From Bacteroidales bacterium (GTDB taxonomy: Bacteria; Bacteroidota; Bacteroidia; Bacteroidales; UBA932), in the NCBI GenBank assembly GCA_017502125.1, contig JAFVVN010000007.1, positions 1-39,412 on the forward strand: a stretch of 39,412 nt of DNA, in the 5' to 3' direction. Under the pieces are notes generated by a model that worked only from the letters and a program-made list of their open reading frames with translations, searched no databases and was not told where the DNA came from. A program made the translations under genes and the position numbers. Of the stretch, positions 3,089 through 20,403 are shown in pieces (positions within the stretch are counted from its first letter, which is position 1; each line of letters opens with the position of its first letter).

Positions 3089-3420
3089 ACCGACAGGCAG
3101 AGTTTGGGCTGATTCAGCGCCTGTCGGTGCCCAAAATGAGGGTCGAAGGCACGAAAACGGGAGAGACAGGCAGAGTTTCGGGGCTAAAGTTGCCTGACGA
3201 TGCCCAAAACGGGGGCGCAAGACGCAAAAACAGCGGAGACAGGCAGAGTTTGGGCTGATTCTGCGCCTGTCGGTGCCCGAAATGAGGGTCGAAGGAACGA
3301 AAACGGGAGAGACAGGCAGAGTTTCGGGGTCAAAGTTGCCTGTCGGTACCCAAAACGGAGGTTCAAGACGCAAAAACAGAGGAGACAGGCAGAGTTTCGG
3401 GCAAAACTCTGCCTGTCGGT
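3089..3420. repeat. five tandem copies of a 40-bp palindrome, ~73-bp period (locus A)
   Basis: Copies start at 3089, 3162, 3235, 3309 and 3381, each 40 bp. The first has arms ACCGACAGGC and GCCTGTCGGT. The last has the longest perfect stem, GACAGGCAGAGTTT paired with AAACTCTGCCTGTC around a 6-nt loop. The 33-bp spacers alternate between two conserved types, so the array is really a ~147-bp unit duplicated plus one extra half. The region 2932-3635 has no convincing gene; reading frames through it only translate the repeats. Confidence 0.85.
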
Positions 3421-3440
3421 GGTCATAACGGGGGATTTGC

Positions 3441-3592
3441 CGAAAGACGGAGCGCCAGCCATAACAGGAGAGAGCAGACGAAAGACGGAGCACCAGCCAT
3501 AACAGGAGAGAGCAGGCGAAAGACGGAGCACCGGCCATAACATGAGGGGACGGGCGAAAGACAGGATGCCGTCCATAACAGAAGGGGCAGGA
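3441..3592. repeat. 38-bp tandem repeat, four copies
   Basis: Units begin at 3441, 3479, 3517 and 3555 with CGAAAGACGGAGC or a close variant, followed by a CCATAACA block. The first two differ at only a few positions; the fourth is degenerate. The array lies between the 73-bp repeat array and the 3' end of the SIMPL-domain gene. Confidence 0.8.
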
Positions 3593-3635
3593 TGCCGGTG
3601 CGAAAAGCTGTCTGACGCTACAAAAGACAGGGGGG

Positions 3636-4343
3636 TCAGTTCTTCAGGTAGTAGGTGACGGAGGTGACGACGCGTACCTTCTTTATATATGGGGTGTTGC
3701 TGTCGCGGTTCTCGATGGAGAATGTACCCTGGCTGGCGGTCTTTATCTTTCCGAGCTTGCTGTCGGAGTCCTTGGCGAACTTCTTGGCTGTCTCTCTGGC
3801 ATTCCTGGTGGCCTCTTCTATCATCTGGGGCTTGATATCGTTCAGGCTTTCATATTTGAACTCCACGGGGTTCTCCCACTGGCTGGTTCCTCCTGCCACG
3901 ATGCCTTTCTTCAGAAGTTCCGACTGCTTTCCCATCAGGGAGAGCACCGTGTCGACCTGAGAGGTGCAGACCGTGATCACGTTCTTTGCTATATATCTGT
4001 ACTGACGGTTGTTGTCCCCGTACTCATTGGCCAGCTTGTCGGAAATCTGGGGCACGGACACAGTGATTTCTGAAGGGTTGACACCACCTGCCTGGAGGAA
4101 AGCCAGAATCACTTCGTTGTTCCTGTCCGTCTGGTCATAGATGGACTGGATGTCGTCTGCCATAACCTTGTATACCACAGGCCATATGACCTTGTCTGCC
4201 TTGACCTCCCTCTCACACAGTCCCTTCACATTCACAACACGTTCATATTCACGGTATTTTTCCACCGCTCTCGGAAGCATGGCTCCCATGACGAACAGTC
4301 CTAACATTACTGCCAGTCCGCTGATGATTCTGCCTTTATCCAT
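3636..4343 (-). CDS. SIMPL-domain (DUF541) membrane-anchored protein
   Basis: The ~235-residue protein has a short basic N-terminus, one membrane segment (about residues 6-24, ISGLAVMLGLFVMGAML) and a periplasmic SIMPL domain over the rest. That domain carries the family's pattern of VNVKG, then DKVIWPV, a long helical region and VTSVTYYL at the end. The biochemical role of SIMPL proteins is unknown; members occur in cell envelopes. The longest frame would begin at a GTG at 4355, but the ATG at 4343 gives the better start. The gene appears to be transcribed alone. A palindrome (4361-4376) lies between it and the likely promoter. Confidence 0.8.
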   Translation of the reverse strand: MDKGRIISGLAVMLGLFVMGAMLPRAVEKYREYERVVNVKGLCEREVKADKVIWPVVYKVMADDIQSIYDQTDRNNEVILAFLQAGGVNPSEITVSVPQISDKLANEYGDNNRQYRYIAKNVITVCTSQVDTVLSLMGKQSELLKKGIVAGGTSQWENPVEFKYESLNDIKPQMIEEATRNARETAKKFAKDSDSKLGKIKTASQGTFSIENRDSNTPYIKKVRVVTSVTYYLKN

Positions 4344-4360
4344 AGTATCAGTCACTCAAG

Positions 4361-4376
4361 TTTCGCACTTGCGAAA
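4361..4376. promoter_or_regulatory. hyphenated palindrome upstream of the SIMPL-domain gene
   Basis: TTTCGCA, two bases, TGCGAAA: a perfect 7+7 dyad 18-33 bp before the ATG at 4343, extending to 10+10 with one mismatch. It could be an operator or a 5' leader hairpin. No protein is assigned. Confidence 0.45.
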
Positions 4377-4527
4377 GTTAAACAAATTTTCAATCTGCGT
4401 AAATGTAGCAAAAATCCTGCAAAAGAAGACATGACCGCACATTACATATAAATATCCGGCATCTATATATCATGGGTACGAGAAATGATTTTTTAATGAC
4501 CATATATGTAATATGATGAAAATTATG

Positions 4528-4535
4528 TATATTTG
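4528..4535 (+). promoter_or_regulatory. predicted Bacteroidetes -7 promoter box for the nitroreductase gene
   Basis: TATATTTG matches TAnnTTTG. It lies about 85 bp before the gene start, leaving a leader of roughly 75 nt. The -33 region is T-rich without a clear TTTG. Confidence 0.45.
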
Positions 4536-4618
4536 AAGTGTTTGAAACTCTGAGGGATAGTCCTGTTCAGAGGACGATATGGAGCAATCCGGAGAACTAA
4601 CTATCAACAATAGGAATC

Positions 4619-5239
4619 ATGAGAAGAATCAGTATGTTTCTTGCAGGACTTTGCCTGATGACGGCAGTTTCGTGCACACAGCCAGACAAGGAGGAAAATG
4701 AAATGAATGAGGTTATCGAGAACATCATGGCGCGCCGCAGCATCCGCCAGTACAAGGCCATTCCGGTGGGCAGGGACACCCTGAACACCATCATGGAATG
4801 CGGAATCAATGCGCCTAACGGACAGAACAAACAGTCATGGGAGGTGAGAATCGTGGACAAGCCGGAGCTTCTTGCAGAAATGTCTGAGGCGATGGGGGCA
4901 TCGCACGGAGGAAACGAATTTGCAAAGGGATGCTTCAGGGGGGCACCTGTCATGGTATTCATCGCACGTGACCTTTCATATGATTTCTCCGCATATGACT
5001 GCGGACTTCTTGCAGAGAACATCATGCTCTCGGCATGGTCTCTTGGAGTGGGATCGATATGCCTCGGCAGTCCGGTGCGCTTCCTCACCGACAACGACAT
5101 GTGCAAGCCATATGTGGAGGGACTAGGATTCTCTGAGGGATATGAACTCTGCCTCTGCGTGGGTCTGGGATATGCGGACGAAAGTCCTGAGGCAAAGCCA
5201 CGCGACATGGGAAAGGTGGCATATGTGGACAAGTTCTGA
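4619..5239 (+). CDS. nitroreductase-family flavoprotein with a lipoprotein signal
   Basis: The 206-residue protein has a typical nitroreductase core from about residue 31: ARRSIRQY (FMN phosphate contact), GINAPNGQNKQSWE, then DCGLLAENIMLSAWSLGVGSIC and a terminal GKVAYVDKF. Such enzymes bind FMN and reduce nitro-, quinone- or disulphide-like substrates with NAD(P)H, normally in the cytoplasm. Here the ATG at 4619 adds a lipoprotein signal: basic MRR, a hydrophobic stretch and AVSC with Cys19, followed by an acidic DKEENE patch. A second ATG at 4703 (Met29) has AAGGAGG at 4688-4694, 8 nt before it, and would give a cytoplasmic form of ordinary start. Both forms are plausible; the sequence alone does not decide. 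The preferred substrate is unknown. Confidence 0.85.
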   Translation: MRRISMFLAGLCLMTAVSCTQPDKEENEMNEVIENIMARRSIRQYKAIPVGRDTLNTIMECGINAPNGQNKQSWEVRIVDKPELLAEMSEAMGASHGGNEFAKGCFRGAPVMVFIARDLSYDFSAYDCGLLAENIMLSAWSLGVGSICLGSPVRFLTDNDMCKPYVEGLGFSEGYELCLCVGLGYADESPEAKPRDMGKVAYVDKF

Positions 5240-5297
5240 CTGGACACTGACAGGAAACCATAATATTTTCTGAGAAAATTTTAAACAGTTTCTGAAT

Positions 5298-5909
5298 ATG
5301 GCAAGCGACCGGAAATGGGTTATCGTCCGGATCGACGGAAAGATAGCTGCAATCTCTACAGATTATAAGGCTCTCGCAGACGTGGCTGCAAGGCTGGCAA
5401 AGGAGAGCAGGCCTGAACACTTGAAGGTGGTGGCGGAAACGGTGTCATTCGACTCCGTGTGGGAGTTGCGCTGCAAGGCCAGGTGGGATGACTTCATTCT
5501 GTTCGGCACCGAGTTCCAGAAGAAGGTGTGGAGGACCCTGTATGACCTCACGCATTCCGGCGAAGGGACAGACTGCAGGACCGGATCTGAAAACGGTCCT
5601 GATGCGGCCAAACCAGAACTCCTTAGTTACAGCGACTTTGCAGAACTGTGCGAGAATCGCGCCGGGGTCCGTGCTGTGGCCCATGCGGTGGGACTGAATC
5701 CGCTGGCTGTGGTCATCCCATGCCATCTGGTGGTTCCCAAGGAGTCCATCGACAGGATTCGGGAGATACGCAAGAAGGCGGAAGACACCATATTCAAGGG
5801 GGACGACCTCTGTCTGGACAAGGTGCTTCGCGACCCGGCGACTGACTTCGGCGAATATTCGCTCGGACGCAGACTCAAAAGGGAACTTATCTTGAAGGAA
5901 CTTCTTTGA
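5298..5909 (+). CDS. ogt: methylated-DNA--[protein]-cysteine S-methyltransferase family (Ogt/MGMT)
   Basis: The C-terminal half is the alkyltransferase domain: GTEFQKKVWRTLYDL (about 70-84), YSDFAE, RAVAHAVGLNP with Arg125 as the likely arginine finger, and IPCHLVV with the alkyl-acceptor Cys142. The family transfers alkyl groups from O6-alkylguanine to this cysteine, restoring the base. Two oddities: the usual PCHRV arginine is leucine, and a ~20-residue Gly/Asp-rich insert (about 88-108) separates the DNA-binding helix from YSDF. The N-terminal ~65 residues match the variable domain of the family. Length (203) is slightly above the usual 160-190. It starts 58 bp after the nitroreductase gene on the same strand; co-transcription is possible. 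Confidence 0.85.
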   Translation: MASDRKWVIVRIDGKIAAISTDYKALADVAARLAKESRPEHLKVVAETVSFDSVWELRCKARWDDFILFGTEFQKKVWRTLYDLTHSGEGTDCRTGSENGPDAAKPELLSYSDFAELCENRAGVRAVAHAVGLNPLAVVIPCHLVVPKESIDRIREIRKKAEDTIFKGDDLCLDKVLRDPATDFGEYSLGRRLKRELILKELL

Positions 5910-5955
5910 GGATGTTTTCTGCCCCCTGTCAAGGTCAGAATGTACCGAAAATGGA

Positions 5956-6068
5956 ACCGTCAGGCAGAAAATTTGTCCAAAACCTGCCTGATGGTCCCGT
6001 TTTTGAACTTTGGACCCGCGATTCAGGCACCGTCCGGCAGAGAATCAGCATAAAAGCTGCCTGACGGT
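5956..6068. repeat. two copies of the 40-bp palindrome, 73-bp period (locus B)
   Basis: Copies occupy 5956-5995 (arms ACCGTCAGGCAG and CTGCCTGATGGT) and 6029-6068 (ACCGTCCGGCAG and CTGCCTGACGGT), with 33 bp between. They lie 47 bp after the alkyltransferase stop codon. The rest of the gap up to 6295 holds AT-rich DNA and the promoter at 6227; I see no gene. Confidence 0.85.
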
Positions 6069-6226
6069 CCCGGTTCCTGATGTGACAAAAAAGAGTTGGA
6101 AGGTTTACATCATCAGGAGGTGGACTTGGACCGGAATCGGGCTCCGTATTCTGAGCGCACAGGAGGGTTTTTATGAAAAAAACATAAAATTTAATTTAGA
6201 ATTATTCCAAATTAAAAATATTTTGC

Positions 6227-6235
6227 TACCTTTGC
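6227..6235 (+). promoter_or_regulatory. predicted -7 promoter box for the winged-helix/rubrerythrin operon
   Basis: TACCTTTGC matches the TAnnTTTG box followed by C that is common in Bacteroidetes. It sits in a strongly AT-rich stretch 61 bp before the ATG at 6296. No clear -33 TTTG is seen. Confidence 0.6.
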
Positions 6236-6295
6236 ATCGGAAACAGAGACAGAGCCTTGACAGGCATAGGAAAACAACCAGTTAAAACAAAGAAA

Positions 6296-6472
6296 ATGGA
6301 AAAGGAACTCATATTGAAAACTATGAAGGAGGCCGGCAAGCCAGTGGCTGCAGGCGAGGTGGCTACACTCTCAGGACTTGACAGAAAGGTGGTGGACAAG
6401 GTCTTCGCCGAACTGAAGAAGGAGGGAGCTATAGTATCACCCGTAAGATGCAAATGGACTCCGGCAGAATAA
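6296..6472 (+). CDS. small winged-helix protein next to rubrerythrin
   Basis: A 58-residue protein that is almost entirely one winged helix-turn-helix: helix 1 EKELILKTMKEAGK, a short helix GEVATLSG, recognition helix DRKVVDKVFAELKKEG, then a wing (AIVSPVRCKWTPAE) with one cysteine. Similar small proteins are common in Bacteroidales, often annotated as MarR-like regulators. The ATG at 6296 is preferred over an in-frame ATG at 6257, which lies only ~22 nt after the promoter box and adds a non-conserved tail. The gene ends 34 bp before rubrerythrin with no terminator between, so the two probably share a transcript. DNA binding is inferred from fold; the target is not known. Confidence 0.75.
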   Translation: MEKELILKTMKEAGKPVAAGEVATLSGLDRKVVDKVFAELKKEGAIVSPVRCKWTPAE

Positions 6473-6506
6473 TATAAATGTGAAACAACTAAATAATGAT
6501 AAAGTC

Positions 6507-7082
6507 ATGAAATCGATCAAAGGTACAAGAACAGAGCAGAATCTCTTGAAATCATTCGCCGGCGAGAGCCAGGCACGTTCACGCTATACTTTCTTTGCAG
6601 AGGTTGCGAAGAAGGAAGGATATGAGCAGATCGCAGCTGTATTCATGGAGACGGCAGAACAGGAGAGGGAGCACGCAAAGCGCTTCTTCAACTTCCTTGA
6701 GGGCGGTCCGCTTGAAATCACAGCATGCTACCCTGCAGGCGTGGTGGGAACAACTCAGGAGAACCTCCTTGCAGCAGCAATGGGAGAGAAGGAAGAGTGG
6801 GACATACTCTACAAGGAGTTCGCGGAAGTGGCTTCCGAGGAGGGCTTCCCGGCAATCGCAGCGACATTCAAGAACATAGCAAAGGTGGAGGCTGAGCACG
6901 AGCGCCGTTATCTCAAGCTCCTCAGCCGCCTCACAGACGGTGACTTCTTCCATCGCGACGGAAAGATCTGGTGGCAGTGCCGCAACTGCGGATATATCGT
7001 TGAAGCACAGGACGCTCCTAAGACATGTCCTGCATGCCTCTTCCCACAGGCTTATTTCGAGCCGATGAAGGAGAACTATTAG
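6507..7082 (+). CDS. rbr: rubrerythrin
   Basis: The 191-residue protein has the standard rubrerythrin layout. An N-terminal four-helix ferritin-like domain carries diiron ligands in the pattern of Glu20, ETAEQEREH (about 48-56), EKEEW (about 94-98) and KVEAEH (about 126-131). A C-terminal rubredoxin domain has Cys158-x-x-Cys161 and Cys174-x-x-Cys177. It reduces hydrogen peroxide using electrons from the rubredoxin iron, a main peroxide defence in anaerobes. The residue after the last cysteine is Leu where Gly is usual (CPACLF). The longest frame starts at a GTG at 6480; the ATG at 6507 matches the family start. A strong terminator follows. Confidence 0.95.
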   Translation: MKSIKGTRTEQNLLKSFAGESQARSRYTFFAEVAKKEGYEQIAAVFMETAEQEREHAKRFFNFLEGGPLEITACYPAGVVGTTQENLLAAAMGEKEEWDILYKEFAEVASEEGFPAIAATFKNIAKVEAEHERRYLKLLSRLTDGDFFHRDGKIWWQCRNCGYIVEAQDAPKTCPACLFPQAYFEPMKENY

Positions 7083-7105
7083 TATCTATACATGCGCTTA
7101 ATCAG

Positions 7106-7134
7106 GCGGCACCCGAAAAGGTGTCGCTTTTTTT
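7106..7134 (+). terminator. intrinsic terminator of rubrerythrin
   Basis: Stem GCGGCACC (7106-7113) with GGTGTCGC (7120-7127), one G-U pair, a CGAAAA loop, then seven T. It lies 23 bp after the stop codon. Confidence 0.9.
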
Positions 7135-7190
7135 GTTATATTCGTGGCTGGTATCCTGATTCGCTGACGGAGACCTGACAACTTGAACAG

Positions 7191-7325
7191 TTTCCACCAA
7201 AACAGGGTGTTTCCTGGAAACGCCAGGGGAAAAACACAGTTTATCCACCCAAACAGGGGTATTCGTGGAAGCTCAAAAGGGGAAAAACGGTTTTTCCACA
7301 GAAACGAGGTTTTTCGTGGACAAAG
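7191..7325. repeat. tandem ~50-bp repeat upstream of the GH2 gene
   Basis: Units at 7191-7239, 7240-7290 and a partial one at 7291-7325. Each opens with TTTNCCAC-like sequence and AAAC, has GG(T)nTTTCGTGGA-like sequence in the middle, and the first two close with GGGGAAAAAC. Within a unit TCCAC and GTGGA form a small dyad. The last unit ends 12 bp before the GH2 start codon, so the array forms the promoter/leader region. No TAnnTTTG box was found in it. Confidence 0.65.
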
Positions 7326-7337
7326 ATTGAAAGACAT

Positions 7338-9863
7338 ATGATGAAAAGACTGATGACCATTGCTGTCCTGCTGGCTGCCATAGCTGCCGGGGCACAGACA
7401 CCACGTGAAAAGATCAACTTTGACGACAACTGGCAGTTCGCATTCGGCGATGCATCCTCCCCTGCAAAGGATTTCGGATGCGGGACCGAATACTTCAACT
7501 ACCTTACAAAAGCCGCCTCCATCCATAACGAGGGTCCATATTCCCCTAAGTTCGATGCCAGCGGATGGGCTGTGGTGGACCTCCCTCATGACTGGGTGGT
7601 GGATCTTCCGTATGCAGAAGAGGCAAGTCACAGTCACGGATACAAGACTGTCGGACACAAATACCCGCAGACAAGCGTCGGCTGGTACAGGAAGACATTC
7701 ACAGTTCCGCAGGAGGACTACGGAAAGCATATCTGGCTGCAGTTCGACGGAATATTCCGCGACTCGCGCATATGGGTGAACGGATTCTACCTCGGTGGAG
7801 AGCCGAGCGGATATGCCACAAGGACTTATGATATATCGGAATACCTCAACTACGGAGGAGAGAACCTCGTATGCGTCCGGGCAGACGGCACTCTCGAAGA
7901 GGGATGGTTCTACGAGGGAGCCGGCATATACCGTCATGTGTGGCTGAACAAGGCTGCGCCGGTGCATGTGGCGCCTTTCGGCACGTTCGTGCATTCGAGA
8001 TTTGCGGGAGACATGCTCCCGGACGGAGGATTCGAGGTCGATTTTTCAAAGGCGACTCTGTATATAAACACTACTGTGCGTAACATGGCCAATGCCGCTA
8101 CAGAATATAAATATACACTCCGTCACACATTGAAGGATGCACAGGGCAAGGAGGTGTCAAGCTGTGAGGCCAAGGGAACCGTACTTCACGGCAAGGAGGA
8201 GCATCTATGCAAGACACGCATGACAGTGGAGGACCCGCATCTGTGGAGCTGCGATGATCCATATCTATATACTGTGGTGACCGAAGTCTTCATAAATGGA
8301 AGGCTCACAGATGGATATACGACTATAACAGGCATCAGACACATAGATTTCGACAAAGACAAGGGATTCTTCCTGAACGGCGAGCCGGTCAAGCTCAAGG
8401 GAGTGAACATGCACCAGGACCATGCGGGAGTCGGCTCAGGCATTCCTGACGGGCTTCAGGAATGGAGGCTTCTCCAACTGAAGAAATTCGGCTGCAACGC
8501 ATACCGCTCAAGCCACAACCCGATGACTCCGGAAATGCTCGACGCGTGCGACAGGCTGGGAATCCTGGTCATCGAGGAGAACCGTCTCACGGGAATCAAC
8601 GAGGAGCATACGCGCCTGTTGCAGAGGATGATCGAAAGGGACAGGAACCACCCGTGCATAATACTCTGGAGCGTGGGCAATGAGGAATGGGGAATCGAGT
8701 GGAACGACTTCGGCAATCGAATAGCGGAATCAATGAGGGAATATTGCCACAGGCTCGACCCTACCAGAAAGATGACGGTGGCTTCCAGCAGCGGCCCGAC
8801 CATTCTGGTGCCGGCCGATGTTGCAGGATACAACTATATACTCCAGAACCCTGTGGACAAGCACCGGGAGGATTATCCTGAGCGCTGTGCACTCGGATCG
8901 GAGGAGACTACCGGCTGCGGCACCAGGGGTGTATATTTCCCTGAACGTAAGGAGCCGGATCTTGAATCTGCTGCAGAAGGCGGGCAGAAGAAGGCAGAAG
9001 GTTGTCCGCCGTCAGCAGTGGACGCCGGCAACGGCCGAATGGTGGCCTTCAACCGCAGCAAGCACGGACCTGACAGTCTGTACAACTGCATCGAGAGAGG
9101 ATGGAAGTTCTATGCCGAACGTCCTTGGCTTGCCGGACTCTTCTACTGGACCGGCTTCGACTACCGAGGAGAGCCTAATCCTATGGTCTTCCCGGCCACC
9201 AGCTCCGAATTCGGAATCCTGGACTACTGCGGATTCCCTAAGGACGAGGCATATTACCTCAAGTCATGGTGGACCTCGGAACCCGTACTGCATATCCTTC
9301 CGCACTGGAATCTTGCCGGACATGAAGGCGAGACAGTCTCAATCTGGGTGTACAGCAACTGCGACGAGGTGCAGCTGACCGTCAACGGAAAGAAGCTGGA
9401 GAGAAAGAAGATGCCGGTGAACGGACATCTGGAATGGACAGCCGTATATAAGCCGGGCTCGCTGAAGGCAGTGGGTTACAAGGCTGGAAAGAAAGTCATG
9501 GAAACCTGTATAGCCACCACTGGAGAGGCGGTGAAGGAAGTGTGGACGACCGAGACTGTCGGTGACATCATGGTGGCAAACGTCAGCCTGACCGATTCCA
9601 AGGGACGTTTCGTGCCGACTGCCAATCAGGAAGTGACCTATACGGCACCTGAAGGCTGGACCATCCTCGGCTGGGGCAACGGAGACCCTGCCTTCCAGTA
9701 TGTTGAACGTCCTGTGACATATGGAGCTTCAGCAGCAGATGGCACAGCAGCGTCTGACGGGACCTATCTGACGGGGACCCCTGCACCGGATCAGGATGCA
9801 CGAAGCATCAAGGTGGTCACCTTCAACGGCCTGGCACAGGTCATTCTGCAGCGTTCCATATAA
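7338..9863 (+). CDS. GH2 glycoside hydrolase (beta-galactosidase-like), secreted
   Basis: The 841-residue protein has an N-terminal signal peptide (hydrophobic stretch, cleavage near AGAQ), a GH2 sugar-binding jelly roll (about 24-215), an Ig-like domain (about 225-335) and a TIM barrel (about 336-620). The acid/base is Glu449 in SVGNEEW. The nucleophile is probably Glu522 in LGSEETTGCGTRG. A DUF4982-type domain and a C-terminal Ig-like domain follow (about 650-840). This domain set is typical of Bacteroidales periplasmic beta-galactosidases, though beta-glucuronidase or related activity cannot be excluded. Two low-complexity inserts rich in Ala/Gly/Pro, near 540-567 and 790-815, look like extra loops. 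It stands alone on the plus strand, apart from the PUL, between the repeat array and a terminator. Confidence 0.88.
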   Translation: MMKRLMTIAVLLAAIAAGAQTPREKINFDDNWQFAFGDASSPAKDFGCGTEYFNYLTKAASIHNEGPYSPKFDASGWAVVDLPHDWVVDLPYAEEASHSHGYKTVGHKYPQTSVGWYRKTFTVPQEDYGKHIWLQFDGIFRDSRIWVNGFYLGGEPSGYATRTYDISEYLNYGGENLVCVRADGTLEEGWFYEGAGIYRHVWLNKAAPVHVAPFGTFVHSRFAGDMLPDGGFEVDFSKATLYINTTVRNMANAATEYKYTLRHTLKDAQGKEVSSCEAKGTVLHGKEEHLCKTRMTVEDPHLWSCDDPYLYTVVTEVFINGRLTDGYTTITGIRHIDFDKDKGFFLNGEPVKLKGVNMHQDHAGVGSGIPDGLQEWRLLQLKKFGCNAYRSSHNPMTPEMLDACDRLGILVIEENRLTGINEEHTRLLQRMIERDRNHPCIILWSVGNEEWGIEWNDFGNRIAESMREYCHRLDPTRKMTVASSSGPTILVPADVAGYNYILQNPVDKHREDYPERCALGSEETTGCGTRGVYFPERKEPDLESAAEGGQKKAEGCPPSAVDAGNGRMVAFNRSKHGPDSLYNCIERGWKFYAERPWLAGLFYWTGFDYRGEPNPMVFPATSSEFGILDYCGFPKDEAYYLKSWWTSEPVLHILPHWNLAGHEGETVSIWVYSNCDEVQLTVNGKKLERKKMPVNGHLEWTAVYKPGSLKAVGYKAGKKVMETCIATTGEAVKEVWTTETVGDIMVANVSLTDSKGRFVPTANQEVTYTAPEGWTILGWGNGDPAFQYVERPVTYGASAADGTAASDGTYLTGTPAPDQDARSIKVVTFNGLAQVILQRSI

Positions 9864-9888
9864 CCTCCTGAATACCAGAGGTTTAAGC

Positions 9889-9922
9889 AAAATCGCCTGC
9901 GGCAAATGTCGCAGGCGATTTT
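9889..9922 (+). terminator. hairpin terminator after GH2 (GCCTGCG family copy 1)
   Basis: A perfect 13-bp stem, AAAATCGCCTGCG with CGCAGGCGATTTT, around the loop GCAAATGT. A-run and T-run flanks let it work on both strands; the SLC13 gene ends just beyond it from the other side. Two further copies lie at 17013 and 20422. Confidence 0.85.
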
Positions 9923-9974
9923 ATGTAAAGCGCTGACAATCAGCTGGGTGAGCATTTTACTTTGGCAGGGAATA

Positions 9975-11861: not shown

Positions 11862-11882
11862 ATGGCCTGAAGTTATAGACGG

Positions 11883-11890
11883 CAAAGATA
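11883..11890 (-). promoter_or_regulatory. predicted -7 promoter box for the SLC13 gene
   Basis: TATCTTTG on the minus strand matches TAnnTTTG, followed by C. It predicts a leader of roughly 15 nt before the ATG at 11861. No good -33 box is seen. Confidence 0.5.
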
Positions 11891-11944
11891 CTGAAAATAT
11901 CAGACCTGAGGCCAGACGAAATTAAAGTTTACGTATCAGCACCT

Positions 11945-12613
11945 TCATAGTCTGCTCCTCCTCTTTATCATCGCGATCATGCTGTATGCCATCGGGGTGC
12001 CGAAGAAGGCCTCGATACCGAGCTTCATGAAATACTGAAGGGCGATCATCAGCAGGATGTCACGGGTCGGAAGAGTGCCGGCAAAGGCAATCAGCACGAA
12101 CGGAATGGTGTCCAGCAAATATCCGATGACGGAGCTTCCGATGGTCCTGACCCAGAGTCTCCTCTCACCGAATCTCTTGCGGATCCACTCCATGAGCCAG
12201 GCGTTGGACAGCTCTCCGCAGAGGAAGCCCACAAGCGAGGCTATGACTATCCTCGGCACATAATTGAATATGGAATTATAGGCATTGGCCGTGGCATCAA
12301 GATAATCCGGCGAAGGCAGCCACACCCCTATCTGGGTGCAGACGACCATGAGCAGGTTGCACACGAATGTCAGGATTATGACCTTGCGGGCGGTCTTATA
12401 GCCCCATATCTCGGTGAGGACGTCACCAAGCATGTACGCGAACGGGAATGTGATCGTGCCGGAATCGAAGTACAAAATATCGAAGATGCCGATGACCTTT
12501 ACGGCCATTATGTTTGACACAAGATATGCCGTGACAAACAATGCAGAAACGATGACAAGCAGCATGTCGCCGCTCTCCCGGTTTTTTAAAGGGTTTTCCG
12601 AAACCTTGTTCAT
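11945..12613 (-). CDS. yhhQ: queuosine precursor transporter (YhhQ/VUT family)
   Basis: The 222-residue membrane protein has about six hydrophobic segments and the family landmarks: AYLVSNIMAVKVI early, then FPFAYMLGDVLTEIWGYKTAR, GFLCGELSNAWLM, RTIGSSVIGYLLDTIPF and a C-terminal LGIEAFFGTPMAY. YhhQ-type proteins import queuine or preQ1-type bases used to modify tRNA at position 34. It has its own promoter box about 20 bp upstream. The SLC13 gene follows 83 bp downstream, also with its own promoter box. Confidence 0.9.
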   Translation of the reverse strand: MNKVSENPLKNRESGDMLLVIVSALFVTAYLVSNIMAVKVIGIFDILYFDSGTITFPFAYMLGDVLTEIWGYKTARKVIILTFVCNLLMVVCTQIGVWLPSPDYLDATANAYNSIFNYVPRIVIASLVGFLCGELSNAWLMEWIRKRFGERRLWVRTIGSSVIGYLLDTIPFVLIAFAGTLPTRDILLMIALQYFMKLGIEAFFGTPMAYSMIAMIKRRSRL

Positions 12614-12630
12614 ATCAAATTAATTTCCCG

Positions 12631-12638
12631 CAAAGTTA
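12631..12638 (-). promoter_or_regulatory. predicted -7 promoter box for yhhQ
   Basis: TAACTTTG on the minus strand matches TAnnTTTG, followed by C. The implied leader is about 10 nt. It marks yhhQ as transcribed apart from the PUL that ends at 12768. Confidence 0.5.
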
Positions 12639-12767
12639 ATCAAAACTTCGATTCCGGGGAAATCGGTTGTTAAATATCCATAAGCAAGATCGAAACCATC
12701 TTAAAAACAGGTTTGCTATCCGGAGAAATGGCGGAATCCCCGGATGATAAAAACCTCAGTTTTAAAA

Positions 12768-14417
12768 TCAGTTTACGAGAAGTTCGATGTCGCAGCCCCA
12801 GAAGACAGATGGCATGGCCGGTTCCAAGGTGCCGTCGGATCTTATCAGGGAGATGTCTTTGATAAGGACTTCCAGTTCTTTGTCTGTTGTGCACTGGAGG
12901 GTGGTGCGGGAGGCTTTGGAACCGAGGGATGATTCCTTGAAATAGACTGTTGTCGAGGCGTCCTCGAATTTGACATACTGCTCCTTGCCGTCGCTTTCGC
13001 CATAGACCTTCACATGGAGGGTTCCGCTTTCGGGGGCCTCTGCCAGTTCGAAGGTCAGACCCTTGTACTCGGACAGGTAGAGGGCCGACGGATGGAGGTT
13101 GGCCTCGGACCAGAGCTGGCGATAGGTTACCTTATAGTCCAGGTCATAGTCTTCCAGAACAGGAATCTGAGGGGTGAAGCCTTCACCGTGATATGCCTTC
13201 ACTATGGCCTCTGTGATTTCCGGATGGCTGAATGCCGGAATGGAGCGGTAAAACCCGTCGGAAAGATTCATCCAGTGGAAGGTACCCATTCCATATTCCT
13301 TGGCCGTGCGGACAAAATAGTCGGCATAGTAGCAGAAATTCTCCAGGGAAGGGTTCTCGCTGAATGTGCCCCACTCGCCTATTATCACCGGACCACCTTT
13401 GGAGACCAGATGCTGGTCCAGGAGTCGGAACATCTCTGAGACCTCCGCTTCCATGGAAGGAAGGTTGTCAATCTCAGGATAGGCATGTACCTGAAAAAGA
13501 ATATGGTCCTCAACGGTGTCCACAGGCTTTTCCATATATATGAGCGGGTCCGGGAGATGCCGGTTCCAGGTGCCGGAGCCGTTGCATGCCCCATATGTGT
13601 TCACCACCAGGTTCCTGACGGCATTGTTGCCACCGGTCGCACGCACCACGTCCACAAAGCTCTGGGCATAGGAATTTATTGCGTCATAAGCCTGAGAGGC
13701 CGCTGTGGCATCATAACCTATATTCATGGAGGCATAGCACCATGAACGGCTCTCGTCCAGCATTTCGTTATATGATTCGAAAAGGAGACGCTGGTCATAT
13801 GACTTGAACCTTTCGGCTATCTGCTTCCACAGACCTTCGTAGCGGGCCTTGACAGTCTGGTATATTTCCGGATCTGCCACAAGCCAGGCGTCAGGATCGG
13901 CACCGGTGTCATGATGGATGTTGATTATGCAGTACATTCCGGCGTTGAGAACATAGTCCACAATCTCGTTCACGCGGTTCATCCACTCGGCAAAGACCAC
14001 TCCGTTGGCATCCATATGGACTCCCCAGGTCACAGGGACGCGGATGGCTCCGAAACCGGCGTTCTTCATCATGGTCATGAGTTCGGGACTGGTCACAGGC
14101 TGTCCCCATCCCGTCTCCCATGCTCTCCAGTCACGACCGTCAGTGCCGCCGGTCCACCAGACTGCATCCAAGGTGTTTCCCAAATTCCAGCCCACTCCCA
14201 TGCTGCGGATGGCTTCGTAGGAGGACTCGAAAGCGGGAAGGTCAGGGGTCGGCTCGGGATCCGGTTTCTGCTCCGAACCGTCATCGGGCTGCTTTTCAGG
14301 TTCCGGACCGGCAGGAATCTCCGGCAGCGGCCCTTCATTCTCGGAAGACTCATCCACAGGAGAGCATGACAGCATCAAGCCTGCCATGCACACTGCCAGA
14401 AATATATATCTTTTCAT
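12768..14417 (-). CDS. GH5 endo-beta-glucanase/mannanase lipoprotein, last gene of the PUL
   Basis: Counted from the ATG at 14417 the protein has 549 residues. The longer frame to 14462 adds a tail without signal features and overlaps the palindrome. MKRYIF and a hydrophobic stretch end in LMLSC (Cys18), a lipoprotein signal. A Pro/Glu/Asp-rich linker follows (about 20-65). The GH5 barrel (about 66-415) has GVGWNLGNTLDA, INIHHD, acid/base Glu218 in FESYNEM and nucleophile Glu348 in VIIGEWG. It resembles subfamily GH5_4, which includes endoglucanases, xyloglucanases and mannanases. The last ~120 residues form a beta-rich module, perhaps carbohydrate-binding; I cannot name its family. The acidic linker after the cysteine suggests surface display. 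It follows GH94 after 64 bp. Confidence 0.85.
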   Translation of the reverse strand: MKRYIFLAVCMAGLMLSCSPVDESSENEGPLPEIPAGPEPEKQPDDGSEQKPDPEPTPDLPAFESSYEAIRSMGVGWNLGNTLDAVWWTGGTDGRDWRAWETGWGQPVTSPELMTMMKNAGFGAIRVPVTWGVHMDANGVVFAEWMNRVNEIVDYVLNAGMYCIINIHHDTGADPDAWLVADPEIYQTVKARYEGLWKQIAERFKSYDQRLLFESYNEMLDESRSWCYASMNIGYDATAASQAYDAINSYAQSFVDVVRATGGNNAVRNLVVNTYGACNGSGTWNRHLPDPLIYMEKPVDTVEDHILFQVHAYPEIDNLPSMEAEVSEMFRLLDQHLVSKGGPVIIGEWGTFSENPSLENFCYYADYFVRTAKEYGMGTFHWMNLSDGFYRSIPAFSHPEITEAIVKAYHGEGFTPQIPVLEDYDLDYKVTYRQLWSEANLHPSALYLSEYKGLTFELAEAPESGTLHVKVYGESDGKEQYVKFEDASTTVYFKESSLGSKASRTTLQCTTDKELEVLIKDISLIRSDGTLEPAMPSVFWGCDIELLVN

Positions 14418-14458
14418 AGTCTGCTCAGATTGCTTAATAATGAGTTCATTTGACAAAA

Positions 14459-14475
14459 CCACTGTGTCACAGTGG
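14459..14475. promoter_or_regulatory. CCACTGTG palindrome between GH94 and GH5
   Basis: CCACTGTG, one base, CACAGTGG: a perfect 8+8 dyad starting about 7 bp after the GH94 stop codon, flanked by GACA/TGTC. In the minus-strand transcript it is followed by TTTTG, so it could be a weak terminator. The tight symmetry also fits a dimeric repressor site. Confidence 0.55.
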
Positions 14476-14481
14476 CCTGTC

Positions 14482-16968
14482 TTATCCCAGAGTCACCACC
14501 ACCTTGTGTTCTCCAGGTGTGTGTGGAACCAGATTGCCCTCAAGGTTCACTCCGTCAACCACCAGGGATTTCACTCCGCGGCAGACACCGGAAGGATTCC
14601 GGACAGTGATCTCGTAGAGGGAGCCGCGGAATCGGCGGCGGACCGTATATTCCTTCCAGTCAGGACATATGCACGGGTCTATGCATAGGCCGTCGTATGC
14701 CGGTTTCACTCCGAGGATATACTGGGTGACGGCATACCAGTTCCATGCGGCGGTTCCCGTGAGCCAGCTGTTCTTCGCCTCACCTGGTCGTGCAGCGTCC
14801 TTGCCGGCTATCATCTGGGAATATACATACGGCTCCACCTTGTGCAGGGCACAGTCTTCTATATACGACGGACATATCTTCCTGTAATATTCCCATGCGC
14901 GGTCGCCGCGACCGATGACGGTCTCGCCTATAATAACCCAAGGATTGTTGTGGCAGAATATGCCGGCGTTCTCCTTGTAACCTGCCGGATATGAAGATAT
15001 TTCACCATATTCCACGAAATACCTTGTGAAGGCCGGGTTGTTCAGGACGATTCCGTGCTCACAGTCCAGACGCTCCTTCACCGAATCAAGCGCCCTGGTC
15101 ACCATTCCCTCTTCCAGACCGATTCCGGCCATAGAGCACCATCCCTGTGACTCGATGAATATCTGACCTTCATCGTTCTCGTGCGAACCGACCTTGCGGC
15201 CGAAATAGTCATATGCACGAAGGTACCAGTCTCCGTCCCAGCCGTGCTTCTTGACCGCCTCTACCATATCGTTAACGAGGCCCTCTGCACGGGCAGCCTC
15301 ATCGGAGAGTCCCAGATGACGGCAGAGTTCCACATAGTCACGGCCACAGACAACGAACAGACCTGCAATCATAAGTGATTCAGCCTTAGAGCCTTCCGTC
15401 TTATTCTCCGTGGTCTGGAACGATTCGTTCGGATCCCATGAGAAGCAGTTCAGGTTCAGACAGTCATTCCAGTCTGCGCGGCCGATGAGAGGCAGCATAT
15501 GCGGACCGAGATTGTTGACCACATGGTCGAAGGATATACGCAGATGCTCCATCAGAGAAACCTCGGAACCTGGCTGGTTGTCGAAAGGCACCGGCTCGTC
15601 CAATATTCCGAAATCTCCTGTCTCCTTTATATATGCCACGGTTCCGAAAATGAGCCACATAGGATCGTCATTGAAACCGCCGCCGATGTCGTTGTTGCCG
15701 CGCTTGGTCAGAGGCTGGTACTGGTGGTAGCATCCGCCGTCCGGGAACTGGGTGGAGGCTATGTCTATGATACGCTCGCGGGCGCGCTCAGGAATCTGAT
15801 GCACGAAGCCCACAAGGTCCTGGTTGGAGTCCCTGAAGCCCATTCCGCGGCCGATTCCGCTCTCGAAGAACGAGGCCGAACGGGACATGTTGAAGGTGAC
15901 CATGCACTGGTACTGGTTCCAGATGTTGACCATCCTGTCCATCTTTTCCTCCGGACTCTTCACCGTATATATATCCAGCAGGGCATCCCAATATGCCTTG
16001 AGCTCGGCAAATGCCGCATCCACCTTGGCCGTGGTGTCGAGGGCCGATATGAGTTCGCGTGCCTTTGTCTTGTTTATGACAGGTGAACTTCCGCTATGCT
16101 TCAGGCCCGGCATATCAAAGACGAGATTGCCGCTGTCATCTGTCACAAACTTCTCTTCCTGAGGGTTTTCCACATATCCGAGCAGGAATATATAATCCTT
16201 GCTTTCGCCAGGCGCGAGTTCCACCTCTATGCAATGCGAGGCTATCGGGCTCCAGCCGTGGGCTATGCTGTTTCCGGAAGTGCCTGCCATAACCTTCTGA
16301 GGGTCTCCGAAGTCGTTATACAGGCCTATGAAGGTCTCCCTGTCTGTGTCGAATCCGTCCACAGGTGCGTTCACGCTGTAGAATGCATAGTGATTGCGGC
16401 GTTCCTTATATTCGGTCTTATGATATATGACCGAACCGTCCACCTCGACTTCGCCAGTCGAGAAATTGCGCTGAAAGTTCTCCATGTCGGTGGCTGCGTT
16501 CCACAGGCACCACTCGGCGAAAGAGAAGAGCCTGAAGCTTTTCGGGGCAGCAGAGGTGTTACGCAGGGTCACCTTCTGGACCTCTGCCCAGCTATGGAGC
16601 GGAACGAAGAAGAGCACACTTGCCTCGATGCCGTCCTTGGCACCGGTGATGCGGGTGTAGCTCATTCCATGACGGCATTCATAGAAGTCAAGCGGAGTCT
16701 TGCACGGTTTCCATCCCGGTGACCAGACAGTGCCGCCGTCGTTGATATAGAAATATCTGCCGCCGTTGTCCATAGGGACATTGTTGTAGCGGTATCGCGT
16801 AATACGACGGAACTTGGCATCCTTGCAGAAAGTATATCCGCCCGCCGTGTTGGAAATCAGCGAGAAGAAGTCCTCATTGCCGAGATAGTTGATCCATGGC
16901 CACGGGGTCTTGGGATCGGTGATCACATATTCGCGGTGCCTGTCGTCAAAATATCCGAATGTCGTCAT
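14482..16968 (-). CDS. GH94 cellobiose phosphorylase
   Basis: The protein has about 828 residues, near the usual ~810-820, and no signal peptide, so it is cytoplasmic. Its start [16 protein letters not shown] and PWPWINYLG match the family N-terminus, so the ATG at 16968 is preferred; an ATG at 17001 would add 11 residues. Further landmarks are the N-terminal beta-sandwich, [31 protein letters not shown] and [10 protein letters not shown] with catalytic Asp502. The enzyme converts cellobiose and phosphate to glucose-1-phosphate and glucose, saving ATP. In this PUL it would handle Glc-Glc disaccharides from a glucomannan or beta-glucan backbone, next to GH130 for Man-Glc. Other GH94 substrates (cellodextrin, laminaribiose) are less likely given the motifs. 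Confidence 0.88.
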
Positions 16969-17012
16969 AATTCGTGCGTCACTTAAAGTATTGTATTTCA
17001 ATCATTTGAAAT

Positions 17013-17044
17013 AAAACGCCTGTGCCATATGCCGCAGGCGTTTT
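17013..17044 (-). terminator. hairpin after GH36 (GCCTGCG family copy 2)
   Basis: In the minus-strand transcript: AAAACGCCTGCG, loop GCATATGG, CACAGGCGTTTT, with one G-U pair. It lies about 26 nt after the GH36 stop codon and before GH94. A small CCTGAT/ATCAGG dyad (17055-17067) lies between it and the stop. Confidence 0.75.
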
Positions 17045-17069
17045 TGCTTAATTGCCTGATTATCAGGGA

Positions 17070-19271
17070 TTAATCTACTGGGGCTGCCACAAGGCGGAGG
17101 ACGCGGCTGGACCAATCGTCCTGCTTGTGATAGTCCACCTTATGCTTGAGCGGGATTTCCAGACCGGTCTCCATCAGGAACCTGCCGCTGAACGACAGTC
17201 CTTCATATGGGAGAGGCTCGTTGTCTATGCGATTGAGCTCGCGGACCTCATATAATCTGTCCGGATCCAGACCTGCCATCTTCACGCGCGGGAGGTGGTC
17301 GTCATAGAAGGTCTCTGTCTTCCACCAGTAGAACACCGCCTCGTCCTTTTCCGGAGCGACATACATCAGGGATGCCATGTTGTGGCCGTCGTATGGAGAG
17401 ACGAGACGATATATGTCACCCTGCTGCACTACAGGGCGGATTTCCTTATATTCCGCTATGGCCTTTCTGCAGAGGTCCCTCTCCTCCTGAGTCATGTTGC
17501 GAGGCTGGATCTCCATGCCCAGACGGCCGCTCATGGCCACGTCGATGCGGTATTTCAACGAAGTGGTGCGGAAGACGGTGTGGTTAGGAGTGGCACTTAT
17601 ATGGGAAGCCATCGCCACTGCCGGGAAGAAATATGACACACCCCATTGCATGTGGATACGCTGGAGGGCATCGGTGTTGTCGCTCACCCAGAACTCGTCG
17701 AACCAAGGGAGCACGCCCCAGTTGGCACGTCCGCCTCCGGAAGCACATGCCTGGATGGTGACATCAGGATATTTAGCACGGATCCTGTCGCAGACCTTCG
17801 CGAATCCGCGGTGATATTCGATGTAGAGATGACTCTGCCTGTCCTTAGGGAGGTACTGTGAGCCGTGGTTGACGATGGACATGTTGGCGTCCCACTTTAT
17901 GTAGTCGATGCGGGGGTTCTCTGTCATCAGGTCGTCGACGATCTTGAACACGAAGTCCTGAACCTCCGGATTCGAGAGGTCGAGCACAAGCTGGGTGTTG
18001 CCTCGGCCGACAACCGGTTCACGCTCCGGAGCCTTGATCACCCAGTCGGGATGCTTTTCATAGAGCTCGCTGACCGTGTTGGTCATCTCCGGCTCGATCC
18101 ATATTCCGAAACTGATTCCGTGGGCGTCTGCACGCTCCACCAGCCAGCCTATGCCGTTAGGAAGCTTGTTCTTGTCCACATTCCAGTCACCGAGGGCGCA
18201 GTTGTCGGTCAGACGAGGATATTTCTCGCCGAACCAGCCGTCGTCCATAACGAAGAGTTCGCCGCCCATATAGGCTATATCCTCCATCATCTTGTCCATG
18301 CCCGGCTCGTTGATGTCGAAATATACACCTTCCCAGCTGTTGAGGAGAATCTTGCGGAGCTGCTTGCCGTGTGCCAGCTTGTAGTTGCGGCCCCACCTGT
18401 GGAAATTGCGGCTGGCCCCGCTCAGACCTTCGTCCGAATATGTCAGGGCAAGTTCAGGGGTCTTGAAAACTTCCTTGGAAGCGAGGGTATATTCAGAATT
18501 GTCCGGGTTGATTCCGGCATAGAACTGATGCCAGTCGGTGTCGCGGGTGTCGATGCGGAGTTCATAGTTTCCGCTGTAGCAGAGGGCTGCTCCGATCACG
18601 CGGCCGGTGTTTTCCTGCGGCTTGCCGTCAAGGGAGAACATGACCTCGGAATGGTCTGTGTGGGCATTTCGTACTCCGTCCTTGTTCTTGACCGTGAACA
18701 TTCCGCGCTCGAGAGGCTGCTGGGTGAGGCGGCTTTCGTTTGCCCATGTGCCGTGGAGATGACTGATCCAGACATCACCGACACGGATAGGAAGATAGCC
18801 CGAATCGAAACGTGCCAGCTTCACCGGCTTCTTCTCCAGGTTCTCGATCTCGGTCCATGTCTCGATCATGTCCACATCCTGATATGCACGATAGCACACT
18901 GTTACATAGAACGGATACACGGTGTCCTTCAGACGGATTCTTGTCACCTTGGCGGTCGGTTCCTCAATTGTCCGGATTCCCTCCACATTCAGAACAGTGG
19001 ACATATTCCCATCCGCATGGGTCACTCCAAGGGCTGCCTCAGAAGCACACCAGAGACCATATGGCGGATAGGCATTATGGTTCGGAGCACCGGCTGCCTG
19101 AAGGTTAGCGACATCCGCATCGCAGAGTCTGTTTCCGAAATATACGATCTGGAGTTCCTGACCCGGCTCTGCCTTAAGAATCAGTTCTGTGTTCGGTGTC
19201 GCCACGCGTACCTGTGCCATGGTCAGAGCTGCGACCATCAACGACACCAGCGATAATAGTGTTTTTTTCAT
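17070..19271 (-). CDS. GH36 alpha-galactosidase, secreted
   Basis: The 733-residue protein has a signal peptide (hydrophobic run, cleavage near TMAQ). An N-terminal beta-sandwich (about 20-290) is followed by the catalytic barrel: NSWEGVYFD, VMDDGWFG, FGIWIEPEM, nucleophile Asp461 in YIKWDAN, CASGGGR, and SDNTD at 530-534, whose second Asp is the expected acid/base. The C-terminal ~100 residues form a beta domain. GH36 enzymes remove alpha-1,6-galactose, here from galactomannan or galacto-glucomannan oligosaccharides, probably in the periplasm. It lies between GH5 (151 bp upstream, across the palindromic repeats) and GH94 (downstream, across a hairpin), so its mRNA segment is bounded by structures on both sides. 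Confidence 0.92.
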   Translation of the reverse strand: MKKTLLSLVSLMVAALTMAQVRVATPNTELILKAEPGQELQIVYFGNRLCDADVANLQAAGAPNHNAYPPYGLWCASEAALGVTHADGNMSTVLNVEGIRTIEEPTAKVTRIRLKDTVYPFYVTVCYRAYQDVDMIETWTEIENLEKKPVKLARFDSGYLPIRVGDVWISHLHGTWANESRLTQQPLERGMFTVKNKDGVRNAHTDHSEVMFSLDGKPQENTGRVIGAALCYSGNYELRIDTRDTDWHQFYAGINPDNSEYTLASKEVFKTPELALTYSDEGLSGASRNFHRWGRNYKLAHGKQLRKILLNSWEGVYFDINEPGMDKMMEDIAYMGGELFVMDDGWFGEKYPRLTDNCALGDWNVDKNKLPNGIGWLVERADAHGISFGIWIEPEMTNTVSELYEKHPDWVIKAPEREPVVGRGNTQLVLDLSNPEVQDFVFKIVDDLMTENPRIDYIKWDANMSIVNHGSQYLPKDRQSHLYIEYHRGFAKVCDRIRAKYPDVTIQACASGGGRANWGVLPWFDEFWVSDNTDALQRIHMQWGVSYFFPAVAMASHISATPNHTVFRTTSLKYRIDVAMSGRLGMEIQPRNMTQEERDLCRKAIAEYKEIRPVVQQGDIYRLVSPYDGHNMASLMYVAPEKDEAVFYWWKTETFYDDHLPRVKMAGLDPDRLYEVRELNRIDNEPLPYEGLSFSGRFLMETGLEIPLKHKVDYHKQDDWSSRVLRLVAAPVD

Positions 19272-19290
19272 TTACTGATCATTTATATAT

Positions 19291-19403
19291 ACCATCAGGC
19301 AGAGTTTTGACCGATTTTCTGCCTGACGGTGGGAAAAATGGTTCATTTTGTATGGTTTTGGGGACCGACAGGCAGAGTTTTGACCGATTTTCTGCCTGAC
19401 GGT
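19291..19403. repeat. two copies of the 40-bp palindrome, 73-bp period (locus C)
   Basis: Copies occupy 19291-19330 and 19364-19403 and differ at only two positions. Arms are ACCATCAGGCAGA or ACCGACAGGCAGA with TCTGCCTGACGGT; the inner part GTTTTGACCGATTT is identical. The 33-bp spacer is unrelated to those at loci A and B. The array lies 20 bp after the GH5 stop codon (19423). A further CAGAC/GTCTG hairpin fills that small gap. Confidence 0.88.
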
Positions 19404-19422: not shown

Positions 19423-20403
19423 CTATAGCTGTTCCTTCACGAAACGCCCCCACGGACGAAGGTCAGACTCTGCCCAAGGTCCCTCTGACAGAGCAGATGG
19501 CAGGAGCATCGAACAGGTTTCCTCCTTGTCGGAGATAGACCAGAAGAGGTAGCTGATGTCGTTCTCGTCCATCCACTCGATCCATGCCTCGGTCGACTCC
19601 ACATCTATAGGTCCCTGACCGTCGGCATTCATTCCTCCGCACTCGGTCACGAAAAGGGCCAGTCCCTTGCTCATCGCATAGTCACCCTTCTCACGAAGCC
19701 ACTCCTTATGGGTGCCGGCATAGAAATGGAGGGTGTACATGAGGTTGTCATAACCTATGATCGGATCATTTGCGGCATCGTCCACGTTCTGTGACCATCT
19801 CGGCGTACCGACAATGATCACAGCGTCCTTCTCGATGGCGCGGATTGCCGCGATGACAGTTTCCGAATACTCCTTGATCTCTGCCCAGGTGTAGTCTATC
19901 TGATTGACATGGTCCTTGTATGAAGGCTCGTTCCATATTTCATATATCACATTCGGAACACCCTTGTACTTCGAAGCCATATAGGTGAAGAACTCCACTG
20001 CCGCATCCGTGTGCAGACCGTGGGCATGCCAGTCCACAAGGACATATACACCGTTGGCAATCGCCGCATCCACGATGGTGCAGGCGCACTGCTTTCCGAA
20101 ATCAGGGTCGTCAAGATAGCACTTCGCCTGATTCTCGCCGGCACGAAGTTCCACTCCGATGGCAGCACGGACAATCTCTGCATCCCAGTCCTGAACCACA
20201 TGGCGGACTGCACCGGCATTATAGAATCGAGGCCAGAGGCAGTTCCAACCGAAACTCATTCCTTTAAATTCAACAGTGTCGCCCAATTCGTTCATCAGGG
20301 CCGTGCCTTCCACATGGAGGCGTTCCACTTTTGGGGTGTGCGTTGTACACATGACCGACAACATCACTGTTGCCAGAAATCCAGCAAAATGTCTAATCTT
20401 CAT
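19423..20403 (-). CDS. GH5 (subfamily 2-like) endo-beta-1,4-glucanase
   Basis: The 326-residue protein is essentially one GH5 barrel resembling bacterial Cel5A-type cellulases (GH5_2). It has VEFKGMSFGWN, VDWHAHG, acid/base Glu159 in YEIWNEP, LHFYAGTH and nucleophile Glu254 in FVTECG, followed by the WSISDKEETCS end motif. It would cut beta-1,4-glucosyl linkages, implying that the target backbone contains glucose as well as mannose. The N-terminus looks like a lipoprotein signal, but the lipobox is irregular: Met occupies the position before Cys19 (LSVMC), where Gly, Ala or Ser is usual. Lipidation is therefore uncertain; periplasmic release is the alternative. It follows the symporter gene across a hairpin. 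Confidence 0.88.
   Translation of the reverse strand: MKIRHFAGFLATVMLSVMCTTHTPKVERLHVEGTALMNELGDTVEFKGMSFGWNCLWPRFYNAGAVRHVVQDWDAEIVRAAIGVELRAGENQAKCYLDDPDFGKQCACTIVDAAIANGVYVLVDWHAHGLHTDAAVEFFTYMASKYKGVPNVIYEIWNEPSYKDHVNQIDYTWAEIKEYSETVIAAIRAIEKDAVIIVGTPRWSQNVDDAANDPIIGYDNLMYTLHFYAGTHKEWLREKGDYAMSKGLALFVTECGGMNADGQGPIDVESTEAWIEWMDENDISYLFWSISDKEETCSMLLPSALSEGPWAESDLRPWGRFVKEQL

Follow-up and report, generated by a model that had tools for sequence, protein, structure and literature searches.

The window analysed here, a 39,412-nt stretch of a gut Bacteroidales bacterium (contig JAFVVN010000007.1 of assembly GCA_017502125.1), carries nine copies of a 40-bp palindrome, which we refer to as F1, in three arrays where all six spacings between neighbouring starts are exactly 73 bp. 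F1 is a non-autonomous mobile family resembling repetitive extragenic palindromes (REPs), its dispersed unit being a dimer of 113 bp, mostly direct, along which A/T tracts recur every 10.4 bp. With F1 at seven turns, and the palindromes of sister REP-associated tyrosine transposases (RAYTs) at seven, eight and ten, the data suggest a mobile system that measures DNA in whole helical turns. The source genome (G000, the window being its contig 80) is a 2.34-Mb assembly, 78% complete, and was compared with a sister species (G032, 91% complete).

Each F1 palindrome consists of 12-nt arms around 16 nt (ACCGWCAGGCAG-N16-CTGCCTGWCGGT), and a dimer is two of them whose starts differ by 73 bp, leaving a spacer of 33 bp. 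All nine copies of the original prediction are present, as are the 73-bp spacings, whilst the 74 and 72 bp it gave within the five-copy array were an off-by-one reading (copy four begins at 3308 rather than 3309). Nine sites in the window reach at least 19 of the 24 arm bases, a score that no site attains in 100 first-order Markov surrogates (best 18), and Rfam gave no match anywhere in the window. Further copies had been anticipated in the genome, and a pattern search of G000 allowing up to three mismatches in the 20 specified arm bases returned 66 sites, the weakest of which may be chance matches, against two for a reversed control pattern. Copies with at least 18 of 24 arm bases were collected from 20 stretches around copies in G000 and nine in G032, giving 83 in total. 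Consecutive distances below 500 bp were 73 bp in 42 cases and 61, 72, 76 and 340 bp once each, and for neighbours within 200 bp the expected peak at 73 bp, rather than a random spread, accounts for 42 of 45 distances (the others being 61, 72 and 76). Chained at exactly 73 bp, the copies form 26 dimers, ten singletons and five longer runs (3, 3, 4, 5 and 6 copies; n = 41), and 37 of 42 pairs are more alike in direct than in inverted orientation, a test softened by the symmetry of the palindrome. In the larger arrays the 73-bp unit seems to have been expanded in tandem. In the largest array seen, on contig 31 of G000 (L044:5004-5408), six copies follow one another at exactly 73 bp and the spacers are alike.

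Spacers had been described as unrelated between loci, which has to be corrected. Inside the five-copy array they are alike, as they are in arrays of four to six copies; between arrays, phased A/T tracts are common to them (mean pairwise identity 0.45 over 33 bp and 0.34 over positions 9-24; 32 spacers, one per array). A CRISPR-like array was rejected, as spacers are alike inside long arrays and the arrays are dispersed. In 82 comparisons of dimers from different places (core identity ≥0.70, both 40-bp flanks <0.5), identity outside the 113 bp falls to about 0.25. Flanks are unlike in 21 of the 22 most alike dimer pairs listed, and two G032 dimers 6.3 kb apart are 97% identical inside with flanks at 25-30%. 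One dimer site is common to both species, flanks included (0.90 and 0.93). Alike cores with unlike flanks show that the 113-bp dimer is the unit that spreads, and the site kept in both species shows that it can persist. Among 400 genus genomes, the other F1-like matches were one each in G209 (a 73-bp pair with no RAYT), G360 (a single copy) and G269 (a sister family, F4, with its RAYT), whilst the exact pattern occurred in 11 stretches of named genomes, six from the isolate of G032 and five elsewhere, none of these five in a 73-bp pair.

In 31 oriented dimers, maxima of A/T content recur at intervals of about 10.4 bp between positions 5 and 109. This periodicity covers arms and spacer, with tracts on either strand, and ends at the element borders. 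The spectrum of 28 aligned dimers (three of the 31 were dropped in alignment) peaks at 10.4 bp, and each of the 28 singly between 10.2 and 10.5 bp. Set against 8122 background windows, 27 of the 28 exceed the 99% quantile, eight the 99.9% quantile and one the maximum. These dimers share arm sequence and hence are not independent, which makes the spacers the better test: base shuffling inside them yielded at most 39.6 in 500 shuffles, against 180.1 observed. A and T interchange in spacer columns (16 A and 12 T in column 16), and the tracts across the spacer combine as A,A,T in 14 dimers, T,T,T in six, A,A,A in four and otherwise in four; in the T,T,T and A,A,A combinations end-to-end pairing is impossible. 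The original prediction had taken 73 bp as about seven turns, placing the palindromes on one face of the helix, and both this repeat and the other families spaced at eight or ten whole turns, described below, support it.

Base pairing left no comparable trace. We found no covariation in the palindrome, with 73.6% of cells paired against a shuffled mean of 73.6% (78 of the 83 copies, five having been dropped in alignment); spacer pairing fell below the shuffled value (48.5% against 53.9%, with 500 of 500 shuffles as high; 28 dimers), as did pairing over the whole dimer (60.9% against 64.0%). The outer arms of F1 are too invariant for a test of compensatory change. Selection for a hairpin or terminator was rejected for lack of covariation in palindrome, spacer or whole dimer, and because no compensatory pairing is seen the signature is one of duplex DNA rather than of a hairpin. 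Nor do the base frequencies of the 83 copies show the GT[AG]G foot of canonical REPs.

A REP-associated transposase had been proposed as something to look for, and a RAYT clade was found in the genus, linked to sister families of F1. In G032, one RAYT gene has a 72-bp pair of another palindrome (F2) 19 bp from its stop; the same genome holds six F2 pairs 72 bp apart, plus two in which one partner has diverged, and a version of the F2 palindrome that differs by a single base per arm forms 82-bp pairs in G063 and G026. With this RAYT as protein query, 92 of 121 genus genomes yielded relatives (E ≤ 1e-10), and 50 of the 54 best, nearly full-length matches, together with those of G258 and G311, make up the 52 loci used here. 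The HUH motif and catalytic tyrosine (H50, H52 and Y107) are present in 45 of 45 aligned proteins, these being 45 of 53 after removal of eight (broken, duplicate, long-branched copies and others), and the Y1 fold is closest to a solved RAYT. The middle residue of the HUH motif varies, the tyrosine motif is mostly Y[VI]LRN, and the proteins run to ~306 aa with a C-terminal helical extension, for which neither a confident fold match nor a sequence match was obtained. Two members scored 36.7 and 25.8 bits against NCBIfam NF047646 (cut-off 80), Pfam PF01797 scores were 20.2 and 21.9 (cut-off 23), and seven further members had no Pfam Y1 match. Among 247 genomes drawn from the order, only G000 itself matched (E ≤ 1e-15). 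The clade is a genus-specific set of HUH/Y1 transposases, and almost every member has arms of its own, the 40 loci comprising 33 arm families.

We scanned 103 flanks of these 52 loci, keeping a repeat pair where it scored more than 3 above the best of its own 40 shuffles. Pairs occurred in 66 flanks, at 71 (4), 72 (19), 73 (14), 82 (13), 83 (3), 84 (2) and 104 bp (3), with the remainder outside these classes; none of the 66 lay at 74-81 or 85-103 bp. A pair in the seven-, eight- or ten-turn class stands on at least one side of the gene in 40 of 52 loci, and on both sides, as 82-bp pairs of the altered F2 palindrome, in G090 and G258. A palindromicity filter removed 14 of the 66 pairs (48 twice, 57, 71, 72 twice, 82 twice, 83 twice, 84, 126, 128 and 129 bp), and in the 35 loci left the concentration at 10.3-10.5 bp is 0.86, a value that 20000 uniform draws never bring above 0.54 but that is generous owing to the shared ancestry of the loci. 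On the RAYT tree the three spacing classes need seven changes, and the well-supported branches alone force seven for the seven-turn label. In 25 seven-turn dimers, one per locus, spacer A/T peaks near -10, 0 and +10 from the midpoint, with z 17.2 for a period of 10.4 bp. The midpoint of 13 eight-turn dimers lies in antiphase (2.84 rad; z 4.1 for the 10.4-bp period), which is what an even number of turns requires, and the mean spectrum over whole dimers peaks at 10.3 in both classes. At one RAYT (G078, contig 34, L235) the two sides differ: the pair on one is spaced at 104 bp, that on the other at 83 bp, and their arms are related.

A second RAYT-like group in the genus has pairs 51-52 bp apart, or five turns, at L111 (= L068), L124 (= L090), L128, L137, L140, L144 and L088. 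Of the 18 pairs seen in 106 flanks of other Y1 proteins, 11 had this 51-52-bp spacing, with some loci counted under two identifiers and flank borders approximate; the others lay at 45 (twice, in runs of N), 78, 85, 90, 103 and 126 bp, and a repeat scan had 85 twice and no 90. The 51-52-bp pairs may extend the whole-turn rule.

Arm sequence and geometry place F1 with the elements that flank clade RAYTs. Its arms match those of the G090 contig-165 RAYT family at 10 of 11 bases, against at most seven for all other families. The counterpart of that RAYT in G269 is 94% identical and has 73-bp pairs on both sides (F4), whose arms read ACCGTCCGACAG or, in one case, CTGCCTGACGGT like those of F1, and in the subclade holding both proteins eight of ten loci have an in-class pair, all at exactly 73 bp. 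A cognate RAYT lies beside the element in the sister families F2-F4. G000 has a single clade RAYT with its own 82-bp family, and G032 has several with other arms. The best Y1_Tnp gene of G000 (contig 7, L061) is flanked by 74-nt repeats at 427-894 and 1858-1931 carrying the palindrome AAATCGCCTGYGGCA..TGCCGCAGGCGATTT, 148 and 173 bp apart upstream of the gene.

On balance we think it probable that F1 is a REPIN-like element mobilised by a RAYT of this clade through a bent-duplex complex with both palindromes on one face. The cognate RAYT would read the palindrome arms, and before or during strand cleavage the pair would be held as duplex DNA on a bent or wrapped helix, with one A/T tract facing inward per turn. 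Such a complex would demand a whole number of turns, seven in F1 and eight or ten in its relatives, and the bend may be held by a RAYT dimer, an HU-like protein or gyrase. The wider proposal, that selection on a bent duplex keeps the elements of the whole clade at seven, eight or ten turns and that lineages switch by whole turns, we regard as evenly poised; under it the phase of A/T versus G/C would be conserved whilst base identity, A-tract strand and arm sequence drift.

Several observations weigh against the preferred reading of F1. No RAYT flanked by F1 was found in G000 or G032 at their present completeness (78% and 91%), which the missing fifth of the G000 assembly, or loss, may explain. 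No target duplication of F1 was shown, and a comparison of the window region with 61 genus genomes, in which synteny was poor around arrays 1 and 2, gave no clean empty site. TnpA-REP enzymes act on single strands, according to passages of PMC6006769. In the flank scan, 12 of 52 loci had no pair in the three classes, pairs outside them occurred at 45, 48 (twice), 57, 60, 126, 128 and 129 bp, of which one at 45 and one at 60 survived the palindromicity filter, and the G311 RAYT had a pair on one side with none seen in the 487 bp fetched opposite. Distances are inherited within a RAYT subclade, so that loci are not independent. Short spacers alone leave the period unfixed (z 16-19 from 9.0 to 10.6 bp), and taken singly only 23 of 38 RAYT-flank dimers have their peak at 9.8-10.9 bp, the other 15 outside that range.

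In the main rival reading the phasing would serve the host: the elements would be sites wrapped by DNA gyrase or another nucleoid protein, a Bacteroidales analogue of the BIME-2 class of bacterial interspersed mosaic elements, selection for wrapping would maintain their geometry at each landing place, and transposition would only spread them. According to passages of PMC6379681, the Escherichia coli gyrase motif spans ~130 bp, the GC content of its arms is periodic at 10.75 bp, and gyrase cleaves BIME-2 above expectation; F1 shows a comparable periodic pattern over 113 bp and is intergenic. The gyrase motif has, however, a distinct centre of ~36 bp between its periodic arms, whereas F1 is periodic throughout, eight- and ten-turn families of the same design fit a single fixed footprint poorly, and the palindrome families are tied to RAYT genes. 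Moreover, REP clusters in 200 kb of E. coli MG1655 (four 50-kb stretches, L291-L294, with 53 hairpins in 11 clusters) lack the 10.4-bp A/T peak (ratio 1.36), though some bind gyrase. We consider host wrapping rather unlikely. The A/T spectrum of these MG1655 clusters peaks near 9.0-9.2 bp (largest ratio 5.7, at 9.0).

We hold it less probable still that F1 is an ordinary REPIN family, under selection as single-stranded DNA or RNA hairpins, with a spacing copied from few ancestors. Fixed doublet spacing is known already, in the hairpin-forming REP doublets of Pseudomonas (71 bp, GI doublets, and 110 bp; passages of PMC3116915), and the outer arms of F1 are palindromic and too invariant to argue against a hairpin. 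Against this stand the pairing results given above, the predominance of direct dimers, and the fact that changes of spacing class are whole turns. That 73 bp is merely the unit of a slippage-amplified satellite, scattered by chance, is scarcely credible: the similar spacers inside arrays of four to six copies would fit, but 26 of 41 chains have exactly two copies, the spacing is kept in dimers with diverged spacers, and the design is common to other families with unrelated arms.

The family is thus REP- or BIME-like and mobile with a defined geometry, as originally suggested, on account of its dispersed 113-bp unit, its fixed spacing and a RAYT clade with such pairs. F1 shares with Pseudomonas REPINs a doublet of palindromic units as the replicative unit at fixed spacing; those are also extragenic and near specific RAYTs, but 93% of their doublets are inverted and compensatory changes are common (passages of PMC3116915), whereas F1 dimers are mostly direct (by the soft orientation test), show no compensatory changes, have no cognate RAYT beside them in the two genomes and are marked by an A/T tract every 10.4 bp. 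The linked clade resembles RAYT subclass 2.6 (Bertels group 5), whose Bacteroidetes members have at their flanks atypical structures that recur elsewhere in the genome, the 'atypical' REPs without GT[AG]G, but the published motifs of that subclass are NH[LIV]H, WQ and YIH[QN]NP, as opposed to a variable HUH middle residue and mostly Y[VI]LRN in our clade, with its ~306-aa proteins and their C-terminal extension; the passages of PMC6006769 give no spacing rule, and subclass membership was judged by motif only. The extragenic palindrome clusters of BIME-2 are alike in kind. Many F1 arms contain CGTC, as do the CGTC-tagged REPs (CGTC-1 to -4), which have no dedicated transposase known and are reported from Bacteroidetes among other phyla; their stems are 8-9 bp, loops mostly 4-5 nt and dimers HH, according to parts of PMC3733652, as against F1 with 16 nt between its 12-nt arms and dimers that are mostly direct.

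RAYTs and REPs have so far been studied mainly as single-stranded hairpin chemistry, and a literature search, covering few subscription journals, turned up no paper in which REP spacing is tied to whole turns of the helix. If selection for whole turns is real, it would add a duplex-measuring step to a family known for single-strand hairpins. The many RAYT-linked families of this genus that, with unrelated arms, combine whole-turn spacing with ~10.4-bp A/T phasing suggest that REP mobility or retention includes a duplex stage, for the testing of which the seven-, eight- and ten-turn families are natural variants. It may also offer a route to why some REP clusters are sites for gyrase or nucleoid proteins.

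Features of the three F1 arrays and their neighbours in the window
Feature	Coordinates	Strand	Remarks
Array 1	3089..3420	-	five F1 palindromes, period exactly 73 bp; similar spacers inside array
Array 1 copies	3089-3128, 3162-3201, 3235-3274, 3308-3347, 3381-3420	-	40 bp each
DUF3990 gene	2266-2931	-	neighbour of array 1
SIMPL/DUF541 gene	3636-4355	-	neighbour of array 1
Array 2	5956..6068	+	single 113-bp dimer; copies 5956-5995 and 6029-6068
Array 2 spacer	5996..6028	+	33 bp, A/T tracts in F1 phase
MGMT-like gene	5298-5909	+	array 2 starts 46 bp past its stop
Array 3	19291..19403	-	single 113-bp dimer; copies 19291-19330 and 19364-19403
Array 3 spacer	19331..19363	-	33 bp, A/T tracts in F1 phase
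Flanking gene	17070-19271	-	19 bp from array 3
Flanking gene	19423-20403	-	19 bp from array 3

The arrays had been said to lie just 3' of a gene. The nearest 3' gene ends are indeed 215, 46 and 19 bp from arrays 1, 2 and 3, but 5' ends lie 157, 411 and 19 bp away, and over the sampled loci the preference for 3' ends is weak. Of 37 arrays (a 38th, cut by the edge of its contig, was excluded; genes were called by a longest-open-reading-frame rule), 19 sit between co-directional, nine between convergent and nine between divergent genes, compared with 25, 7 and 8 array-free gaps of at least 150 bp in the same loci. A gene-end preference was rejected on this small difference; median distances are 61 bp to a 3' and 133 bp to a 5' gene end. 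Finally, F1 and F2 elements adjoin ORF6N-domain and PD-(D/E)XK-type genes at L041:4347-6469, where the proteins were assigned by Pfam, and at L167:264-2921, where they were likened by eye.

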